NCBI GenBank assembly: GCA_902608115.1
Contig: CACLMT010000002.1
Coordinates: forward strand, 62,001 to 126,000
Source of the DNA: an uncultured SAR86 cluster bacterium
Lineage (GTDB): Bacteria; Pseudomonadota; Gammaproteobacteria; Magnimaribacterales; D2472
DNA length: 64,000 nucleotides
Direction: 5' to 3'
This document shows, in pieces, positions 792 through 62,826 of this stretch. Under the pieces are notes generated by a model that worked only from the letters and a program-made list of their open reading frames with translations, ran no database searches and was not told where the DNA came from. Each line of letters starts with the position of its first letter. Position 1 is the stretch's first letter. A program made the position numbers and the translations under genes.

Positions 792-3511
792 TATTTAATG
801 ATTACTATTTGTCCAAGATTTAGATTTCTAATTGGTTCTTCAATTTTTTCTAGGTCCCCAACAATCAACCAAGTCCATTGATTTGGTTTAATGTATTTTT
901 GTGCTTTGGCTTGAACTTGTTCTAATGTAGGCTTGTCTAGCAATTGAGGTAATTGATTTAAATAATTTAAATCTCTGTTGTAAATTACTATATCTGAAAC
1001 GCCACTTTTTAAGGCTCCTAAAGTCTCAAACCGACCAGGAAGTCTTAAGGTTTTTGAAGCTTTTCCTTTAGCTAACTCCTCATCCGTTACCATGTTTGTT
1101 GAAAGATATGCGTCATACTCTTTTATAATTTCAGATATTGATTCTGAAGTTTTATCTGTTTGAACAGGAGCTGTTACTAGCATAGCTCTTTGACCTTTAG
1201 CATCACTTAATCGAGTTCTTACGCCATACGACCAACTTTTATCTTCTCTAAGGTTCATATTCAGTCTAGCTGTAAAACTGCCTCCAATTGCATAATTCAT
1301 ATAATCCAGTTCAATTTCTTCATTTGTGGCTGTGGGAGGTAAAAGTTGGCCAGCCACAATATACGATTGTTGAGCATTTGGTTTGTCTATCAGATATACG
1401 ACCCTAGTTATTGGAAGAGGGACCTTTGATAAAGTTTTTAGAGGATTGCTTGAAATATCTGTCCAATCCCCAAATTTTTCTTCTAGCATTTCTACAATCT
1501 TATCTAGAGCAATATCACCAGCTACTACAAAAGTAAGGTTATTTGGATTGATAGCTCTTTTATGAATATCAACAATGTTATCTCGAACAATTGCTTCAAT
1601 TGTTGATGAGACACCACTTCCAGTTAAAGGTTTTCCATAAGGGTGATCCTCTCCATAAAGCAATTTACCTATATTTCTATAAGCTATTGAAACGGGTCTA
1701 TTTTCCTCTTGGATAATAGATGCAAGCGTTTGTTTCTTAATCCTATTTATTTCATCAACAGGGAAGGTTGGGTGGATTAAAGCTTCTTTAGCAAGATCTA
1801 AAGTTTTTGAAAGATTAGAGTTTAATGATGACAAGGAAACAAATGAAGTATCTAAGCCTGAACCAAAACTCAAATTTGAACCTAGCGAATCCAAGGCTTC
1901 ATCAAACTTGAGAGAAGAGTATTTTTTAGTACCTTCATTTAACATATCCATCATAAAGTTTGTATAACCAAGCTCTTTAGGATTTTCTTGTGCATATCCA
2001 AAGTTAAATTGAAAATTCATTTCTACTAACGGGACCCCAGAGCGTTGAGCTAAAACAACCTTTGCTCCATTGGAAAGCGTCGCTGTTTGGAGATCTGGAA
2101 ATTTAAATGAAACTTTATCTGATGGGTAGGGTATTCCTTTTGAGCGGTCTATATCTGTTGGATTAATATTATATTTATCAGAAGGTAATATTGTTAAGAC
2201 ATAAGGAGTATCATCAATCCACTTTGCAAATGTTGCCTTTATTTTAGATGTTGTTGCCTTATCAATAAAAGCAGCATTTTCTCTATAACAACCTGGATTC
2301 CCTGTAAATGTCTGACATGTGGCGAGTAGGTCTGATTTACCTCCAAAACCTCCAATACGCTGAATTCCTCTTATAAATCCTGCTAGAGCTTTAGTTTTTT
2401 CAGTTTTTAGTAATTTAGTATCAGGACCTTTTTTAATAAATGAGTTCATCACATCATCTAATGCATTCTCAACCATTAGAGGATCTTCACCAGACACTAC
2501 ATCTACAATAATAATAAAAAGTCCTGCAATTTCACGATCATAATAAAATGCAGTTACATTTGTGGCTATTTGGTTTTTATAAACTAGTTCTTTATATAAA
2601 GGTGAATTTTTCCCACCAGTTAAAACGCTTGAAGCTAGATCAAAGTGAGCAGCTGCTTCTGTATCTCTTTCAGGCACATTCCATATCTTATAAATTCTAG
2701 CTTGGGGGACATTATCAAACATTATTTCGCGCTTTTCTTCGGATCTTTTAGCTATCCATTTTTCTGGTTTTGTTAGAGGAGGACCCGCAGGGATATCACC
2801 AAAAAATTTGGTTACCTTTTCTTTTGCAGTCTCTAAATCTATATCACCAGCCAATGCTAAAACTGCATTATTTGGACCATAGTAAGTTTTAAACCAATCT
2901 TGCACATCTTCAAGAGAAGCCGCATCTAAATCTTCCATAGAACCAATAGTTGACCATGAATAAGGATGTCCTTTTGGAAAAGCCGATTCACTAATTTTAG
3001 AAAAAGCTCTTCCGTAAGGTTGATTTTCTCCTTGTCGCTTCTCATTCTGTACTACGCCTCTTTGTTCATCTAGTTTTTCTTGATCAACAACGCCAAGTAA
3101 ATGACCCATTCGATCAGATTCCATCCATAAAGCTAGGTCAAGAGCATTAGTGGGAACATTTTGAAAATAATTAGTTCTATCAGAATTTGTAGTTCCATTC
3201 TGATCAGTTGAACCTATTTTTTCAAAAGGTTCAAAATATTCACTATTGTAATTTTCAGTTCCATTAAACATTAAATGTTCAAATAAATGAGCAAAACCAG
3301 TTTTACCAAATTTTTCATTTTTTGATCCAACGTGATACCAAACGTTAATAGCGACCATAGGTACTTTATGATCTTCATGAACAACAACCGTTAGGCCATT
3401 ATTAAGGGTAAAACTCTCATATTTAATTTCAGGCAAATCATCCAATAATGAAGCTTGAGTTAAAACGGTTAAAGTAATATTTAATGTTAATAATTGAAAA
3501 AATTTTTTCAT
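791..3511 (-). CDS. M16 family zinc metallopeptidase (secreted)
   Basis: N-terminal signal peptide; HxxEH motif in HLFEHLMFNGTENY; two-repeat pitrilysin-like architecture. Confidence 0.93.
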   Translation of the reverse strand: MKKFFQLLTLNITLTVLTQASLLDDLPEIKYESFTLNNGLTVVVHEDHKVPMVAINVWYHVGSKNEKFGKTGFAHLFEHLMFNGTENYNSEYFEPFEKIGSTDQNGTTNSDRTNYFQNVPTNALDLALWMESDRMGHLLGVVDQEKLDEQRGVVQNEKRQGENQPYGRAFSKISESAFPKGHPYSWSTIGSMEDLDAASLEDVQDWFKTYYGPNNAVLALAGDIDLETAKEKVTKFFGDIPAGPPLTKPEKWIAKRSEEKREIMFDNVPQARIYKIWNVPERDTEAAAHFDLASSVLTGGKNSPLYKELVYKNQIATNVTAFYYDREIAGLFIIIVDVVSGEDPLMVENALDDVMNSFIKKGPDTKLLKTEKTKALAGFIRGIQRIGGFGGKSDLLATCQTFTGNPGCYRENAAFIDKATTSKIKATFAKWIDDTPYVLTILPSDKYNINPTDIDRSKGIPYPSDKVSFKFPDLQTATLSNGAKVVLAQRSGVPLVEMNFQFNFGYAQENPKELGYTNFMMDMLNEGTKKYSSLKFDEALDSLGSNLSFGSGLDTSFVSLSSLNSNLSKTLDLAKEALIHPTFPVDEINRIKKQTLASIIQEENRPVSIAYRNIGKLLYGEDHPYGKPLTGSGVSSTIEAIVRDNIVDIHKRAINPNNLTFVVAGDIALDKIVEMLEEKFGDWTDISSNPLKTLSKVPLPITRVVYLIDKPNAQQSYIVAGQLLPPTATNEEIELDYMNYAIGGSFTARLNMNLREDKSWSYGVRTRLSDAKGQRAMLVTAPVQTDKTSESISEIIKEYDAYLSTNMVTDEELAKGKASKTLRLPGRFETLGALKSGVSDIVIYNRDLNYLNQLPQLLDKPTLEQVQAKAQKYIKPNQWTWLIVGDLEKIEEPIRNLNLGQIVIIK

Positions 3512-6699: not shown

Positions 6700-8155
6700 T
6701 GATGCATTACCTTATTTGCGCAGTCTTCACAGTCTTTTATCGTCTATTTCAAGCTCACAGAATGATACTGAAGACGTATCTATGCGGATTGATCTATCAA
6801 AACGCTTAGTTGATCTTCTGATTGTTCAATTAGAGGCATCCCACTCTTTCAAAGATGATTGTATTGATAGGCTTTCTGAAATAGTTATTAGATTAGAAAA
6901 GCTATTACCACAATCAGATAAGAATAAATTACTTTTAATGGACTTACAAAAGATTTGTGATGCGAAGACTGTAAAGGCTTATGATCAATTTTTGGAAATT
7001 TCTAGTAAAATCCAGCGAGAACTTATACAGCTGAATACTACGAAAGCTCTAGAGTTATCCAAGTTACTTTTTGGTATCGAAAAAGACTACTGCCAACAAA
7101 TTTCTGATGCAATTTTTGCCCAAAATAATTTAAACAGTAACAGCAAAGAGTCAACTTCAGCACGAAATGCACGTAGTTTTAGTACTCATGACATGACTGC
7201 TTTTATTCGTGATCAATTTCCTGAAGAGACAGAAACCATTATCGCAAATGTCTCATTTGTTGCAGGCGGATATTCTAAATTCACAGCAGACATAAGTTTA
7301 GCGAAAACCACATCACTTCCAAAAAATATAATCTTACGTGGAGATTCAGATGATGCATTTGGAGGTATGTCAGTAGTTGATGAGTATCAATTAATAGAAA
7401 CCGTTTATGAGAATGGAGTTTGTGCACCCAAGCCATTGGCTATAGCAAAAAATGATGATGTATTTGGCTCTCCTTTTATGTTGATGGAGAAAATGTCTGG
7501 AACTTGTATAGGGCATATGTATGACATTCCACCTATTCGTTCTGATTCTTTGGTTCAAGATATTGCTAAGAAACTCTCTTCAATACATAGCATTCCTTTA
7601 AAAATGTTAAATAAAACAACCAATGGTGTAGATTGTCTTTCTAGCGATAAAGCTCTCAGCTGGATATCTTCATCAGAGACTTCATGGCTACCATTGAATC
7701 TTCCTTCACCAGCATTTTCTGCAGCTTTTGAATGGCTTCGGCATAATGTAAAACTATATGATAATGGGCCTCGATCTTTAGTTCATGGGGATTATGGTTT
7801 GAATAATTTATTGATTGAAGATGAGTGCGTAACTGGGATTCTTGACTGGGAACATTCGCATGTCGGTAATCCGTCATACGATCTTGGCTATTTTCATCCA
7901 ATGGCAGAGACATTAGCTTCATGGTCCTTATTTCTTGATGCTTATGCCAATACAGGCGCACCTATGCCGAATGAAGATCAAATTAATTATAGTGTTTTGC
8001 TTGGAGCCACTAGGGTGGGTGTAATGGTTTGCCAAGTAAGAAGTGCATTTCTTAATAATCAAGAAACTGGAATTGCTTCCTCTATAGGAATTGCAGGTGA
8101 TTATTATGATGTGGCCGTAATACGTATTTCAAATGCTTTAGAAAAGGTCCTTTGA
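6686..8155 (+). CDS. Phosphotransferase (APH-like kinase fold) with long N-terminal extension
   Basis: LVHGDYGLNNLLIEDECVTGILDWEHSHVGNPSYDLGY (HGDxxxxN and DWE motifs); ~180 aa mostly helical N-terminal region. Confidence 0.85.
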   Translation: MQMNNDALPYLRSLHSLLSSISSSQNDTEDVSMRIDLSKRLVDLLIVQLEASHSFKDDCIDRLSEIVIRLEKLLPQSDKNKLLLMDLQKICDAKTVKAYDQFLEISSKIQRELIQLNTTKALELSKLLFGIEKDYCQQISDAIFAQNNLNSNSKESTSARNARSFSTHDMTAFIRDQFPEETETIIANVSFVAGGYSKFTADISLAKTTSLPKNIILRGDSDDAFGGMSVVDEYQLIETVYENGVCAPKPLAIAKNDDVFGSPFMLMEKMSGTCIGHMYDIPPIRSDSLVQDIAKKLSSIHSIPLKMLNKTTNGVDCLSSDKALSWISSSETSWLPLNLPSPAFSAAFEWLRHNVKLYDNGPRSLVHGDYGLNNLLIEDECVTGILDWEHSHVGNPSYDLGYFHPMAETLASWSLFLDAYANTGAPMPNEDQINYSVLLGATRVGVMVCQVRSAFLNNQETGIASSIGIAGDYYDVAVIRISNALEKVL

Positions 8156-9213
8156 TGAATACTTATAAACGAGACAGAACTAGACTTGGAGCATATTTAT
8201 TACCTGGAAGAATTAAAAATCCAACTGATGTAATAGCTCAAGCAGCAAAAGGTGAAGAATTAGGTCTTGGAACTCTATGGCTTAGCGAAAGATGGGGAAA
8301 TAAAGATATTGGAGCAATATGTGGTGCTGTTAGTCAAGCCGCACCATCTACATATATTGCTGCAGGTACAACCCATTTTCTTACTAGACATCCTGCAGTT
8401 TTAGCATCAATGGCAATGACCTTGCAGTCATTGAGCGGAGGAAAGTTTTTACTTGGTATAGGTCGCGGTGTCCCAGAAATGTTTCGGGCTATAGGATTGC
8501 CCAATATTTCTTTTAAACACTTAATTGATAGTGTGGCTATTCATAAAAAACTTTGTAAAGGAGAGTTAGTAAACTATAAAGGTGTATTGGGTGAATATAA
8601 TGGTATGCAGTTAATTGATTTGCCAGATGTAAAACAACCTCCCATTATTTTAGGGGCAATTGGGCCAAAAGCATTGCAGGTAGCCGGGACTCACTTTGAT
8701 GGCGTAATACTTCATCCATTCTTAACTCCTGATGGGGTTAATCGATGTAGTAAGATTGTTAAGAATGCAGCCACCGCAGCAGGACGAGATCCTGATAATA
8801 TCAAAATTTATGCAACAGTTGTTCTTGCAGCGGACCTAACTCCTGACAAGGAAGAAGAAGTGGTTGGCGGGAGGGCAGTTAGTTATTTTCAAAATCAAAG
8901 TTATGCAGACATATTAGTGGGCTTTAATGGATGGGATAAAAATATTTTAAGGAAATTATGGGAGCATCCCCTTCTTAAAAATCTTAAAAGCAATGCAGAC
9001 CAAACTTTTACTAACGAAGAGCTAGCTGAAGTAAGCCGTGTTTTACCAAAAGAGTGGTTATTATCTGGAGGTGCTGTAGGTAGCAAGGAGCACTGTGCAT
9101 CTCGTCTCGATGATTATCTAGCTGTAGCTGACAATATCATTATTCATGGATCTACTCCAGATAAGCTTACTCCAACAATAAAAGTATTTACGAATAAAAC
9201 TTTATTAGATTAA
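8155..9213 (+). CDS. LLM-class F420-dependent oxidoreductase family protein
   Basis: Luciferase-like TIM barrel: LGAYLLPGRI..GLGTLWLSERWGNKDIGAICGAVSQ..GTTHFLTRHPAVLASMAMTLQSLSGGKFLLGIGRG. Track starts at TTG 8152; ATG at 8155 preferred. Confidence 0.88.
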   Translation: MNTYKRDRTRLGAYLLPGRIKNPTDVIAQAAKGEELGLGTLWLSERWGNKDIGAICGAVSQAAPSTYIAAGTTHFLTRHPAVLASMAMTLQSLSGGKFLLGIGRGVPEMFRAIGLPNISFKHLIDSVAIHKKLCKGELVNYKGVLGEYNGMQLIDLPDVKQPPIILGAIGPKALQVAGTHFDGVILHPFLTPDGVNRCSKIVKNAATAAGRDPDNIKIYATVVLAADLTPDKEEEVVGGRAVSYFQNQSYADILVGFNGWDKNILRKLWEHPLLKNLKSNADQTFTNEELAEVSRVLPKEWLLSGGAVGSKEHCASRLDDYLAVADNIIIHGSTPDKLTPTIKVFTNKTLLD

Positions 9214-28274: not shown

Positions 28275-28907
28275 ATGAAAATTGCAATTCTTGGAGGAAC
28301 TGGAGCTTTAGGTAAAGGGCTGGCAACTAGATGGATCAAATCGAATCATGAAATTATTATTGGTAGCAGGAAATTTGATAAAGCTCAACACATAGCTCAA
28401 AGTTTAGGGTTGGATAAATCATCCGGCATGTTAAATATTGATGCTGCTAAAAAATGTGAAATTGCATGTTTAACAGTTCCTTATACTCATCAGGAAGATA
28501 TCTTGCGAAGTATTGAAGATTCGCTGAAGAAGAAAATCCTTATTGATGCCACTGTTCCGTTAATTCCACCAAAGATAATGAGAGTTCAATTGCCCCAAGA
28601 AGGGTCAGCTGCATTAAAAGCTCAATTGATACTTGGAGAATCTACAAAAGTCATATCTGCATTTCAAAATATTTCTGCTGAACTATTACAATCTACTCAA
28701 GAGGTTGATTGTGATGTTTTGGTAACTGGTAATAATTTTGAGGCAAGGTCTACAGTCATAAGTCTTGTTAATGATGCTGGACTAAAAGGTTGGCATGCAG
28801 GTCCATTATGTAATTCAGTTGCAGCAGAAGCATTAACTTCTGTATTAATTTCAATTAATAAGAACCATTCTATCGATCATTCTGGTATAAAAATTACCGG
28901 TATTTAA
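28275..28907 (+). CDS. npdG: NADPH-dependent F420 reductase
   Basis: MKIAILGGTGALGKGLATRWIKSNHEIIIGSRKFDKAQ; C-terminal GLKGWHAGPLCNSVAAEALTSVLISINK; next to cofEDC. Confidence 0.87.
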   Translation: MKIAILGGTGALGKGLATRWIKSNHEIIIGSRKFDKAQHIAQSLGLDKSSGMLNIDAAKKCEIACLTVPYTHQEDILRSIEDSLKKKILIDATVPLIPPKIMRVQLPQEGSAALKAQLILGESTKVISAFQNISAELLQSTQEVDCDVLVTGNNFEARSTVISLVNDAGLKGWHAGPLCNSVAAEALTSVLISINKNHSIDHSGIKITGI

Positions 28908-28917
28908 GAGAAATAAG

Positions 28918-29679
28918 ATTAACTCAATAAATTTAACTGCTATAGATAATATCCCCCTTATTGAGCCAGGGAATAATATTAGTGAAATTATTATTAAAGG
29001 CTTAGAAGATCAAGGGATTAAACTTGAAGATGGCGATATTATTGCAATTGCACAAAAAATTATTTCAAAATCAGAAAACAGATATCTTGATATCTCTTCA
29101 TTGATCCCTAGCAAAGAAGCAGAAAAACTCGCAAAAAAAATTCAAAAGGATCCTCAATTTATTCAAGCAGTCTTGAATGAATCCAAACAAGTGGTAAGAC
29201 ACAGAATGGATGTATTAATTGTCGAACATAAATTAGGTTTTATTCATGCAAATGCTGGAATTGATAGATCTAATATAGATCAATCTAAGAATAATGTTCT
29301 TTTGCTTCCAGAGAATCCAGATTTATCTGCTAAGAAAATTTGTAATTCAATTATGGAGTATTTTAATAAAGAAATTGGATTAATTATTACAGATACTATG
29401 GGAAGACCATTTAGAAATGGCATTGTAGGATTCGCAATTGGTAGTTTTAATATTCCATGTATCTTAGATGAAAGAGGTAAGAAGGATTTATACAATAATG
29501 AGCTTAAGCTTACACAAATTGGAGTAGCAGATGAGCTCGCAGCAGCAGCATCATTATTGATGGGCCAAGCTACACAAAAAAAACCAATTGTAGTTATCAA
29601 GGGTTGTAACTTAAATTTAAATACATCAAGTACCGCAAAAGATTTAATTAGAAGCGAAAATGAGGATTTGTTTCGATGA
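28918..29679 (+). CDS. cofE: Coenzyme F420-0:L-glutamate ligase
   Basis: Homology-type frame starts well upstream of the track ORF (TTG 29101): NSINLTAIDNIPLIEPGNNISEIIIKGLEDQGIKLEDGDIIAIAQKIISKSENRYLDISSLIPS..; GLIITDTMGRPFRNGIVGFAIGS; DELAAAASLLMGQA. Best start guess is ATT at 28918. Confidence 0.88.
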   Translation: MNSINLTAIDNIPLIEPGNNISEIIIKGLEDQGIKLEDGDIIAIAQKIISKSENRYLDISSLIPSKEAEKLAKKIQKDPQFIQAVLNESKQVVRHRMDVLIVEHKLGFIHANAGIDRSNIDQSKNNVLLLPENPDLSAKKICNSIMEYFNKEIGLIITDTMGRPFRNGIVGFAIGSFNIPCILDERGKKDLYNNELKLTQIGVADELAAAASLLMGQATQKKPIVVIKGCNLNLNTSSTAKDLIRSENEDLFR

Positions 29680-30605
29680 AGAATTATTTATTATTATGTG
29701 GAGGTGTTGGAGGAGCTAAATTAGCGCTTGGATTTTCAAAAGTATTAGAACCATCTAATATGACAATAGTTGTAAATACAGGAGATGATTTTGAATATTT
29801 AAATCTAAAAATCTGCCCAGATTTAGATACGGTTATTTACACACTAAGCGGTGAATCTGATTCGTTAAAGGGTTGGGGTAGGGCAGACGAATCATGGACA
29901 ATGCTAAAGACATTAGGTGATTTGGGTGGTGATACTTGGTTTCAATTAGGCGATAAAGATCTAGCAACCCATTTTTTAAGAACAGACTTAATAAAAAAAG
30001 GAGCTTCATTAAGCTTTGTTAGTCAAGAATTATGTAAACGATTTAATGTAGATCATTTTATTTTACCAATGACAGACGATTTAGTTGAAACTTATGTTCA
30101 AACTAAAAATAAACTTCTTTCATTTCAAGAATATTTTGTAAAACTTCGATGTGAGCCACCTGTATCTGATTTTGTTTTTAAAGGATTAGATAATGCAAAA
30201 TTTAATCCATTAATTAATTTAAGTTCTTTTAATGAGATAATTATCTGTCCCTCAAATCCATTCGTTAGCATTAATCCAATTATTCAATTGAGTGAGTTAA
30301 ATAAATTTTTAAAAGAAAACTCTAATCGAGTGAGCGTTATCAGCCCAATTGTTGAAGCTAAATCTTTAAAAGGTCCAACTTCAAAAATTATGAATGAATT
30401 AGGTTTGGATGTTTCTGTGAAGACAATAGCAAGTTTTTATCAAGAATTTGCTGATACTTTATTTATTGATAGAGCAGATAGCCATCAACGTAAAGATATA
30501 GAAAGTCTAGGCTTTAAGGTTTTTGAGAGTGATTTAATTATGAATAATTTAGAATCAAAAATTGCGCTTGCAAAATCTGTTATTAATTACTTAGAAAAGA
30601 ATTAA
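29676..30605 (+). CDS. cofD: 2-phospho-L-lactate (LPPG) transferase
   Basis: LLLCGGVGGAKLALGFSKVL; VVNTGDDFEYLNLKICPDLDTVIYTLSG; RADESWTMLKTLGDLGGDTWFQLGDKDLATHFLRT. Confidence 0.95.
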   Translation: MKNYLLLCGGVGGAKLALGFSKVLEPSNMTIVVNTGDDFEYLNLKICPDLDTVIYTLSGESDSLKGWGRADESWTMLKTLGDLGGDTWFQLGDKDLATHFLRTDLIKKGASLSFVSQELCKRFNVDHFILPMTDDLVETYVQTKNKLLSFQEYFVKLRCEPPVSDFVFKGLDNAKFNPLINLSSFNEIIICPSNPFVSINPIIQLSELNKFLKENSNRVSVISPIVEAKSLKGPTSKIMNELGLDVSVKTIASFYQEFADTLFIDRADSHQRKDIESLGFKVFESDLIMNNLESKIALAKSVINYLEKN

Positions 30606-30606
30606 A

Positions 30607-31182
30607 GTGAAAATTGCTGCCTTAATTCCGGTAAAAAAATATACTGAATCAAAAGTTCGACTTCAAAATATACTTTCTAAGGATAAGCGCACTTTAATTT
30701 CAAAATTAATGGCTGAGAGAACTGTTTCTGAATTAATAAAATCAAATATGTTTCACTCGATAACTATTGTTACAAATGATCCAGAATTAAATATTAATGG
30801 GACAAATTCTTTTAAAAGTTACTCTCCATTAAACAAAGCTCTTCAAGAGGCGATTGAAAATTTACCCCAAGTAGATAAGGTTATGATCATGCATTCAGAC
30901 CTTCCAATGATTAACTTTAAAGATATAAAAAATTTACTAAAATATGCTAAGTCAAATCAATTATTGATAGTTTCAGATTCACTTGAATTTGGAACCAATT
31001 GTTTAATCTATGATTCTAATTGTCATTTTAATCTATGTTTTGGATTAAATAGTTACCAATTATTTATTAATGAATTTCAAGATCAAGGTATTAAATTTAC
31101 TAAACATAATTGTAAAGCAATAGAACAAGACCTTGACTCGGAAGAAGATTACTTCAAACTAATTAGCTATCTTAAAAATTGA
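30607..31182 (+). CDS. cofC: 2-phospho-L-lactate guanylyltransferase-like
   Basis: GTG start; MKIAALIPVKKYTESKVRLQNILSKDKRTLISKLMAERTV nucleotidyltransferase; HSDLPMINFKDIKNLL; third gene of the cof operon. Confidence 0.9.
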   Translation: MKIAALIPVKKYTESKVRLQNILSKDKRTLISKLMAERTVSELIKSNMFHSITIVTNDPELNINGTNSFKSYSPLNKALQEAIENLPQVDKVMIMHSDLPMINFKDIKNLLKYAKSNQLLIVSDSLEFGTNCLIYDSNCHFNLCFGLNSYQLFINEFQDQGIKFTKHNCKAIEQDLDSEEDYFKLISYLKN

Positions 31183-31238
31183 CTAAATTTGAAATTAAAG
31201 ATCATCTAAATATTGAATTACGGAATTAAGGCGGGAAG

Positions 31239-32114
31239 ATGAATAAAAAAATATTACATTTATTAATTGTATTAATTGGATACGTTGGTTGTATATGTTC
31301 TATGTACTTAACATGGAATCTCTTTGAAAACTTCAATATATTTTTAAGGCTTTTGATTTGTCATGTTGAGGGAACTATTTTTATTTATGTGCTTAGCGTC
31401 CTGTTTAAAAATTCTAGTTGGTATGATGCATTTTGGTCTGTTATTCCTGTTGTTTTAGGTATTTTTTGTTGGAGTGATGTAAATGCTGCTGGAAATGGAT
31501 TAAGAGCATTATTGATGTTTACTTGTCTTTTATTTTGGGCGATAAGGCTTACTTATAATTGGATTAGATCATGGGATGGCTTTTCTCATGAAGACTGGCG
31601 TTATGTAATGATGAAAGGAAAAACAACTAATACATTCCAATATTTTATTAATGATTTCGGTGCTATTCATTTAATTCCAACTTTATGTGTATACATGGCT
31701 TTGCTTCCAATGAATTATGCTCTTTTTTATTTTGGCTCTGATGTTTCATGGTTAGATTGGGCGGCAAGCATCATAGGTATTTCGGCAGTTATTATTCAAA
31801 TTATTTCTGATCAGCAAATGTACAATTTTAGAAAATCGATACAAGAACCACAAACAAAAAATACCGGCCTATGGTATTACTCTCGACATCCTAATTATTT
31901 TGGAGAAATGCTTTTTTGGTTTAGTTTGTTTATTTTTGCTATTTCAGCGCATACGAATGCGCCATGGCTTTTTATAGGCACCATGATAATGTATGCTTTG
32001 ATAGCTAAAGGCTCAGTATCTATGATGGATAAAAGATCATTGTCTAAAAGACCAGATTTTAAACACTACATGGATTCAACACCTGCATTATTTTTGAACC
32101 CTTTTAAGAGGTAA
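31239..32114 (+). CDS. DUF1295 / steroid 5-alpha-reductase-like membrane protein
   Basis: Multi-TM; TKNTGLWYYSRHPNYFGEMLFWFSLFIFA. Confidence 0.85.
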   Translation: MNKKILHLLIVLIGYVGCICSMYLTWNLFENFNIFLRLLICHVEGTIFIYVLSVLFKNSSWYDAFWSVIPVVLGIFCWSDVNAAGNGLRALLMFTCLLFWAIRLTYNWIRSWDGFSHEDWRYVMMKGKTTNTFQYFINDFGAIHLIPTLCVYMALLPMNYALFYFGSDVSWLDWAASIIGISAVIIQIISDQQMYNFRKSIQEPQTKNTGLWYYSRHPNYFGEMLFWFSLFIFAISAHTNAPWLFIGTMIMYALIAKGSVSMMDKRSLSKRPDFKHYMDSTPALFLNPFKR

Positions 32115-61128: not shown

Positions 61129-62826
61129 ATGAAAGCTTTTAGCGATTTTTTATTGGTTTTGGATGCAAACCTTAGTGGCTCATGGTGGTTTCCTGCTTTG
61201 TTAATCGGTACAGGTGTTTATTTCACTATTTACTTAGGCTTTCCGCAATTTAAATTTTTTACTCATGGTTATAGAATTGTCACTGGAAAATATAAAAAAG
61301 AAGAGGCCAAAGGCGAGACAAGTCCTTTTGAGGCATTAACAACAGCCATGTCTGGAGCTGTAGGTACCGGTAATATTGGTGGAGTAGCTTTGGCAATTTG
61401 GGTTGGAGGTCCAGCAGCTATATTTTGGATGTGGATCACTGCAATTTTTGGAATGACAACTAAATTTGTTGAAGTGACTTTGGCTCATAAATATAGGACA
61501 ACGCTAAATGATGGATCTATATCAGGTGGTCCCATGTACTACATTGAAAAAAGTTTTAATAAGAGATGGGCAGGAATCTTATTTGCTGCATTAATGATGA
61601 TCTGTGCTATTGGCTCAGGAAATATGCCTCAAATAAATAATATAGCTCAAGTACTTGATGACACATTTAGTATTGATAAATTAAATACTGGATTGATCCT
61701 GGGTGCTTTGTTGTGGTTAATTATTGTTGGTGGAATAACAAGAATTGCTAAGGTTGCCAGTAAATTAGTGCCAATTATGGGAATCATATATTTCGGTGGA
61801 GCTATAGTCGTTGTGGGAGAAAATTATCAAAATATTCCAGCATCCTTTTATCAAATTTTTTCACAAGTTTTCTCTGGTTCAGCAGCAGCAGGTGGCTTCC
61901 TAGGTGCAAGTTTTGCCATGAGTCTGAAATTAGGTTTAGCGAGAGGACTTTATTCGAATGAGGCCGGTCAAGGATCTTCACCCATTGCTCATGCTTCTGC
62001 TAAAACTAAACATTCCGTGGAACAGGGAATGGTTTCTATATTAGAACCATTTATTGACACGATTGTTGTTTGTAGTGTTACAGCACTTGTTATTTTATCA
62101 AGCAATGTTTGGACTGAAAAATTTGAAAATGAATTTGAGAGATCATCATTATTTTTTATATCTGGATCATACGAAGACTCAAATGCTAACGATCAGAAGG
62201 AGTTAGCAAAATTTGTTTCTGATAAGAGAAAATTTACCAAAGATTCCTCAAAAGTTAAAAACTTCAGCGGTAATTTAACTATTTTAGACGGCAACCTAGA
62301 GAATAATGATTTAACTATCTTTCATAATAATTCAATTGCAGAGAATGTACTTTTTTATATTCCTCTGGATGATGAAGATGAAATTCTTCGATTTAATGGT
62401 CAAATTGAGGTAAATGCTAATGGAGAGATTATAGATAATGTCTCAAGCAAAGGTCTTAAAATTCGAGGTGAGTCATTGGTGCACTCCGCTACTTTAACTT
62501 CAAAAGCATTTGGTTCAGGTGTGCTTGGTAAGTACGGAGAATATATTGTAGCCATTGGGTTGTTATTATTTGCTTTCTCTACAGCTATTGCTTGGTGTTA
62601 CTATGGTGATAGATCAACAGCTTATATTTTTGGTGAGCGTGCCGTTCCAATATATAGATTGTTTTATGTTTTTTGTTTCATTCTTGCTGCAGTTATAGAT
62701 ACCACAATCGTTTGGAGAATTGCTTATGTTGTTGTTGCATTGGTCTCAATACCAAATCTAATAGCTTTATTTATTCTCCGAAAAGAAATGAAAGAGCAAG
62801 TAACAAGCTACATAATCAATAAATAA
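61129..62826 (+). CDS. Sodium:alanine symporter (AGCS) family transporter
   Basis: GYRIVTGKYKKEEAKGETSPFEALTTAMSGAVGTGNIGGVALAIWVGGPAAIFWMW; LARGLYSNEAGQGSSPIAHA. Confidence 0.95.
   Translation: MKAFSDFLLVLDANLSGSWWFPALLIGTGVYFTIYLGFPQFKFFTHGYRIVTGKYKKEEAKGETSPFEALTTAMSGAVGTGNIGGVALAIWVGGPAAIFWMWITAIFGMTTKFVEVTLAHKYRTTLNDGSISGGPMYYIEKSFNKRWAGILFAALMMICAIGSGNMPQINNIAQVLDDTFSIDKLNTGLILGALLWLIIVGGITRIAKVASKLVPIMGIIYFGGAIVVVGENYQNIPASFYQIFSQVFSGSAAAGGFLGASFAMSLKLGLARGLYSNEAGQGSSPIAHASAKTKHSVEQGMVSILEPFIDTIVVCSVTALVILSSNVWTEKFENEFERSSLFFISGSYEDSNANDQKELAKFVSDKRKFTKDSSKVKNFSGNLTILDGNLENNDLTIFHNNSIAENVLFYIPLDDEDEILRFNGQIEVNANGEIIDNVSSKGLKIRGESLVHSATLTSKAFGSGVLGKYGEYIVAIGLLLFAFSTAIAWCYYGDRSTAYIFGERAVPIYRLFYVFCFILAAVIDTTIVWRIAYVVVALVSIPNLIALFILRKEMKEQVTSYIINK

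Follow-up and report, generated by a model that had tools for sequence, protein, structure and literature searches.

The window analyzed here, a stretch of 64,000 nucleotides, corresponds to positions 62001–126000 of contig C2 in an assembly (G000) that comprises 1,248,161 bases (1.25 Mb) in 37 contigs and is 78% complete. The nearest named relatives of this genome, which is that of a SAR86-type gammaproteobacterium, are the SAR86 cluster bacteria FRAM18_bin297, UBA3413, SAR86E, and AG-447 genomes. SAR86 is a widespread lineage of the surface ocean.

Four consecutive genes on the forward strand, npdG, cofE, cofD, and cofC, occupy positions 28275–31182 of the window (Table 1), as a preliminary description of this DNA had proposed. 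Family assignments were made with NCBIfam equivalog models and their curated cutoffs, with Pfam as a second source. All four products exceed the cutoffs: NpdG scores 193 bits (cutoff 149.8) over residues 1–207 of 210, essentially the full length expected of an NADPH:F420 reductase (NpdG/Fno), CofE 229 bits (cutoff 181), CofD 284 bits (cutoff 257), and CofC 107 bits (cutoff 105). The set of CofC, CofD, and CofE that defines a coenzyme F420 maturation module is thus present, and Pfam agrees for all four proteins (F420_oxidored, F420_ligase, CofD, and CofC). CofE matches the solved CofE structures 7uld, 2g9i, and 2phn over its full length from residue 6 onward, and CofD has profile matches to 3c3d and 6uvx, aligning over nearly its whole length with solved 2-phospho-L-lactate transferases. 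The reported 4-nt overlap of cofE and cofD is also there, with the cofE stop at 29679 and the cofD start at 29676. From these family assignments we infer the enzyme activities, and the genes appear to form a real module of F420 maturation and use.

Table 1. Coordinates of the features discussed in the text, numbered from the first position of the window
Feature	Positions	Strand	Basis
LLM-class F420-dependent oxidoreductase, likely cofactor user	8152..9213	+	TIGR03857
npdG, NADPH-dependent F420 reductase, 210 aa	28275..28907	+	TIGR01915; operon position as in relatives
AAGAGA, Shine-Dalgarno-like, 6 nt ahead of the cofE ATT	28906..28911	+	read directly
cofE, F420-0:gamma-glutamyl ligase, 253 aa, non-canonical ATT start	28918..29679	+	TIGR01916
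cofD, FO 2-phospho-L-lactate transferase, 309 aa	29676..30605	+	TIGR01819
cofC, guanylyltransferase, 191 aa, GTG start	30607..31182	+	TIGR03552; alignment to 6bwg, 7p97
fbiC 5'-end relic, TTG-started 16-codon frame, (M)TKFEIKDHLNIELRN-stop	31179..31229	+	relatives' FbiC N-termini
GGCGGGAAG, ribosome-binding-like spacer directly 5' of the DUF1295 gene	31230..31238	+	read directly
DUF1295 membrane protein, right border of deletion	31239..32114	+	PF06966; synteny

Genes for F420, a rare redox cofactor, are uncommon in Gammaproteobacteria, though their occurrence there is already known. Of 387 genomes drawn from the whole class, 15 have cofD; the count is 36 of 204 for the SAR86 order and 24 of 27 for the window's genus, the window's own genome included. 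The emphasis moves to the absence of the synthase for FO, the core of the cofactor. In a CofD tree, the window falls within the SAR86 set among other proteobacterial sequences, which gives no support to a recent transfer from actinobacteria.

Start codon of cofE

The identity of cofE stood, but its placement at the first canonical start codon, TTG at 29101 (192 aa), did not. The N-terminus conserved in the CofE family extends about 61 codons upstream of this TTG, to an ATT at 28918, and the window contains no ATG, GTG, or TTG ahead of the conserved N-terminus. Differences over codons 2–61 amount to 0.28, 0.11, and 0.51 at the three codon positions, a coding-type pattern of change from which we conclude that the stretch is translated.

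The start column contains ATT or ATC in all 15 aligned genomes of the window's genus (g1), as seen at window positions 28906–28920 and at loci L064–L077, L034, L036, L037, and L047. A Shine-Dalgarno-like motif lies upstream of the start in most genomes of the genus that were checked; AAGAGA recurs at this position in many relatives, with GGAG instead in g8, g10, and locus L119. Downstream of this GGAG, ATT or ATA occupies the start column or adjoins it in members of g8 and g10, and in L119 an ATA precedes the column by a few codons. In family f2 the column reads ATG or TTG.

A truncated gene or pseudogene was ruled out by the 61 family-conserved in-frame codons, their coding-type change, and the genus-wide ATT or ATC, and a fusion of npdG and cofE through frameshift or readthrough was rejected because the frame relation of the two genes varies between genomes. 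Judged from these alignments, ATT or ATC looks like a conserved non-canonical start of cofE. A non-canonical start is known for infC in Escherichia coli. Here it would lead gene callers to report CofE about 61 residues short.

Probable deletion of fbiC from its operon

In related SAR86 genomes, the operon has the order npdG-cofE-cofD-cofC-fbiC-DUF1295-M20 peptidase, where fbiC, about 810 codons long, fuses CofG with CofH and in most relatives directly precedes the DUF1295 gene. The window has the same flanks and the same order with fbiC alone absent: cofC ends at 31182 and the DUF1295 gene starts at 31239. The gap retains a short frame (TTG ACT AAA TTT GAA ATT AAA GAT CAT CTA AAT ATT GAA TTA CGG AAT TAA) that overlaps the cofC stop and aligns at the same site with the FbiC N-termini of G019 (TMDIKDHSNLSLRKLI), G010 (NRLEIQEHSNNSLKKL), and also G024. 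Summed over alignments with six FbiC N-termini, its ungapped score was 156 compared to a mean of 48 and a maximum of 147 in shuffled sequences (n = 3000), and the score was reached by none of the 3000 shuffles and by none of 3000 random stop-free 15-mers from the window. This likeness indicates that fbiC formerly stood here and that about 2.4 kb has since been removed, with the deletion junction in or near the spacer at 31230–31238, where relatives have the ~2.4 kb fbiC. Beyond the absence of an FO synthase from the window, noted from the start, fbiC was evidently lost from its conserved operon slot by a local deletion that left a relic, as read from one assembled genome.

A search of the 78% complete assembly found no match to cofG, and nothing matching CofH rose above the radical-SAM background. 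The sole CofH match (17.5 bits, C1:16801–17046) lies in a stretch found in relatives with and without fbiC and is probably background radical-SAM similarity. A complete de novo F420 pathway, with FbiC or with CofG and CofH, was accordingly not found, and at 78% completeness its absence is not final. Of the two options raised in the preliminary description, an FO synthase encoded elsewhere found no support in this assembly, and salvage of FO is favored.

With 22% of the genome unassembled, a relocated fbiC could have escaped the search: the gene (or separate cofG and cofH) may have moved into that part, leaving an ordinary, complete pathway. Outside SAR86, fbiC is often away from cofD; of 29 genomes that lack fbiC near cofD, 23 carry cofH at another site. 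Within SAR86, however, fbiC lies no more than ~5 kb from cofD wherever both share a contig, the relic remains at the old site, and a second genome without FbiC (G076, below) is 93% complete. We consider relocation unlikely.

A second alternative holds that the organism does carry fbiC in its operon and that the deletion arose during assembly or amplification or belongs to a minor strain; it draws on the fact that a single incomplete, multi-contig assembly is involved. Chimeric joins do arise in amplified single cells and strain mixtures. Yet all neighbors are intact, the join falls neatly between the fbiC start and the DUF1295 start and brings an in-frame stop, collinearity of the flanks with a related genome (G007) extends over ~18 kb, and an independent excision occurred in G076; this explanation seems to us more doubtful than relocation.

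A second loss in SAR86

Among SAR86-order genomes with cofD, 33 of 36 have cofH; those without it are the window's genome, G013, and G076. The contig of G013 ends inside fbiC. G076 belongs to another SAR86 family, and no CofG or CofH domain was found in this 93% complete genome. Only a short spacer separates the 315-aa gene after cofC from a 407-aa gene in G076, and in two genomes of its own genus (G094 and G175) fbiC occupies this very slot. The G076 junction lies at ~2980–3040 on the reverse strand of L163 (L042/L163, G076:C10), in a spacer without a recognizable fbiC relic. The G076 contig starts inside cofE, so that npdG is outside its view. From these two cases we conclude that the FO synthase was lost at least twice with cofC, cofD, and cofE kept.

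Other candidates were set aside. G013 and G047 do not qualify as partial losses, as their contigs end inside the operon, and G005, which has no cofD, is uninformative because its contig ends just past the ALDH gene. In G094 the fbiC gene (L043:3053–5331, reverse-complemented) is split into two frames with a break near codons 150–180 of the CofG part, which could be a sequencing error or a young pseudogene. Outside SAR86, six bins (G213, G215, G219, G222, G224, and G227; loci L095, L102, L123, L130, L132, and L139) have cofD and no CofH match at E 1e-20; these may be incomplete bins or further losses of the FO synthase.

F420-dependent enzymes and constraint on the retained genes

The LLM-class, F420-type oxidoreductase that had been placed about 20 kb from the module was recovered ~19 kb upstream of it, with a score of 402 bits on TIGR03857 (cutoff 218), a family of F420-dependent LLM enzymes. 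Real use of the cofactor, suggested on that basis, is further supported by the genome as a whole, which encodes eight LLM-class proteins (PF00296), seven of them above the cutoffs of F420-dependent subfamilies (TIGR03617 twice, TIGR03619 four times, and TIGR03857 once). G076 has ten such proteins and other F420-positive or same-genus genomes tested have 4–10; none was found in any of the eight F420-negative SAR86 genomes tested (91–96% complete). In G180 (L165:7988–8890) and G061 (L044:4870–5760), an LLM-class gene lies in opposite orientation between cofC and fbiC (coordinates of the reverse-complemented locus, minus strand there), and its position inside the F420 operon ties LLM enzymes to the cofactor. 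PNPOx/FDOR-type enzymes were uninformative as markers of F420 use because SAR86 genomes have PdxH-like matches whether they are F420-positive or F420-negative.

The module might also be decaying, with fbiC the first gene to go, cofC, cofD, cofE, and npdG remaining as passengers, and the LLM proteins now working with FMN or free FO. The LLM superfamily includes FMN enzymes too, and CofC is barely above its cutoff (107 versus 105 bits). Against this, cofC varies more than any other gene of the operon across the genus, the LLM proteins belong to F420-specific subfamilies, and all four frames are intact and change no faster than those of relatives. Root-to-tip lengths relative to the mean of relatives are 0.45 for npdG, 0.93 for cofE, 0.88 for cofD, and 0.51 for cofC and therefore give no sign of relaxed constraint, although this is a weak test for a deletion of uncertain age. 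We regard decay as highly improbable.

Predicted substrate of CofC and domains of CofE

Position 162 of CofC (Mrhiz numbering) is Ser in 3PG enzymes and Gly in PEP/2-PL enzymes (PMC8764529). In the window CofC this position is Gly146, which the alignment places opposite the Gly of FbiD (6bwg) and the Ser of 7p97, and Gly is found here in 14 of 14 aligned CofC sequences. PEP or 2-phospholactate is therefore the expected substrate, and 3PG-F420 of the Mycetohabitans type is not predicted. CofE ends at 253 aa and has no FbiB-type C-terminal nitroreductase-like domain (~200 aa); the 449-position model of bifunctional FbiB matches it over positions 71–243 only. Use of PEP would require a stand-alone dehydro-F420 reductase, as CofE does not have the FbiB C-terminal domain.

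FO salvage as a possible source of F420

The genome keeps the late genes and the F420 enzymes and has lost the FO synthase, the gene content of an FO-salvaging F420 user, subject to the 78% completeness of the assembly. These results lead us to propose that this streamlined SAR86 bacterium is probably an FO auxotroph that builds F420 from diffusible FO taken into the cell; the uptake and the source of FO, like the enzyme activities, we infer from gene content. Uncharged, membrane-permeant FO shed by other plankton would enter the SAR86 cell, where CofC, using GTP and PEP or 2-phospholactate, and then CofD would turn it into (dehydro-)F420-0. CofE would add the glutamate tail, trapping the charged product in the cell, and NpdG would use NADPH to reduce F420 to F420H2, to be consumed by about eight LLM oxidoreductases.

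This notion is consistent with several earlier findings. FO is uncharged and crosses membranes by diffusion, whereas F420-0 is charged and retained in the cell (PMC8498797), and FO has been found in the supernatant of Mycetohabitans rhizoxinica (PMC11104420). When FO is present in the medium, yeast equipped with CofC, CofD, and FbiB but no functional FO synthase converts it to F420 (PMC10949242). Synechococcus elongatus and similar cyanobacteria have cofG and cofH for photolyase antennae (PMC9178010). The release and the feeding of FO were shown separately in these papers, and natural FO auxotrophy is not what they show. Two points count against salvage: no FO uptake protein was identified for this genome, and no FO measurements from these waters were found in the literature. 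A literature search by title and abstract, with most subscription journals outside its coverage, returned no paper that treats F420 in SAR86 or FO auxotrophy in nature.

More speculatively, FO could be a traded, vitamin-like metabolite of the sunlit ocean, and some SAR86 lineages that independently dropped the FO synthase could be obligate scavengers retaining their 8–10 LLM enzymes; the feeders would be neighbors bearing fbiC or cofG/H (other SAR86, cyanobacteria, picoalgae, and archaea). We see the case for this broader reading as evenly poised. If FO is shared, F420 would join B12 and thiamin among the cofactors whose precursors are salvaged, cofC, cofD, and cofE alone would no longer imply de novo synthesis, and absence of fbiC would not exclude F420 use. 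The finding also allows a clean test, at the genome level, of whether FO leakage from F420 producers suffices to support their neighbors.

Comparison with known systems

The full operons of SAR86E (AMWX01000001, L071) and FRAM18_bin297 (L065) share with the window the gene order, the non-ATG start of cofE, and the neighbors, with ALDH and SDR upstream and DUF1295 and M20 peptidase downstream. Both carry fbiC (~810 aa, CofG-CofH fusion), whereas the window has just the 16-codon relic.

In mycobacteria, Thermomicrobium, and Mycetohabitans (PMC8498797, PMC8764529), homologous CofC, CofD, and CofE (FbiD, FbiA, and FbiB-N) chemistry is found. These organisms make their own FO, whereas no FO synthase was found in the window's genome; in addition, the window CofE differs from FbiB in having no reductase domain, and its CofC has Gly rather than Ser at the 3PG-diagnostic site. 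The engineered Saccharomyces cerevisiae strain Sc-F420 (PMC10949242) resembles the window in combining CofC, CofD, and a glutamyl ligase without an FO synthase. Unlike the window, it receives chemically added FO, and its ligase, FbiB, has a dehydro-F420 reductase domain.

Streamlined marine bacteria such as SAR11 are auxotrophic for several B vitamins, according to work cited in PMC13374868. The shared compound here would be FO, a deazaflavin, and no account of such a dependence for F420 was found in the literature search; the auxotrophies resemble the situation in the window in that a costly step is lost and the dependent enzymes are retained.
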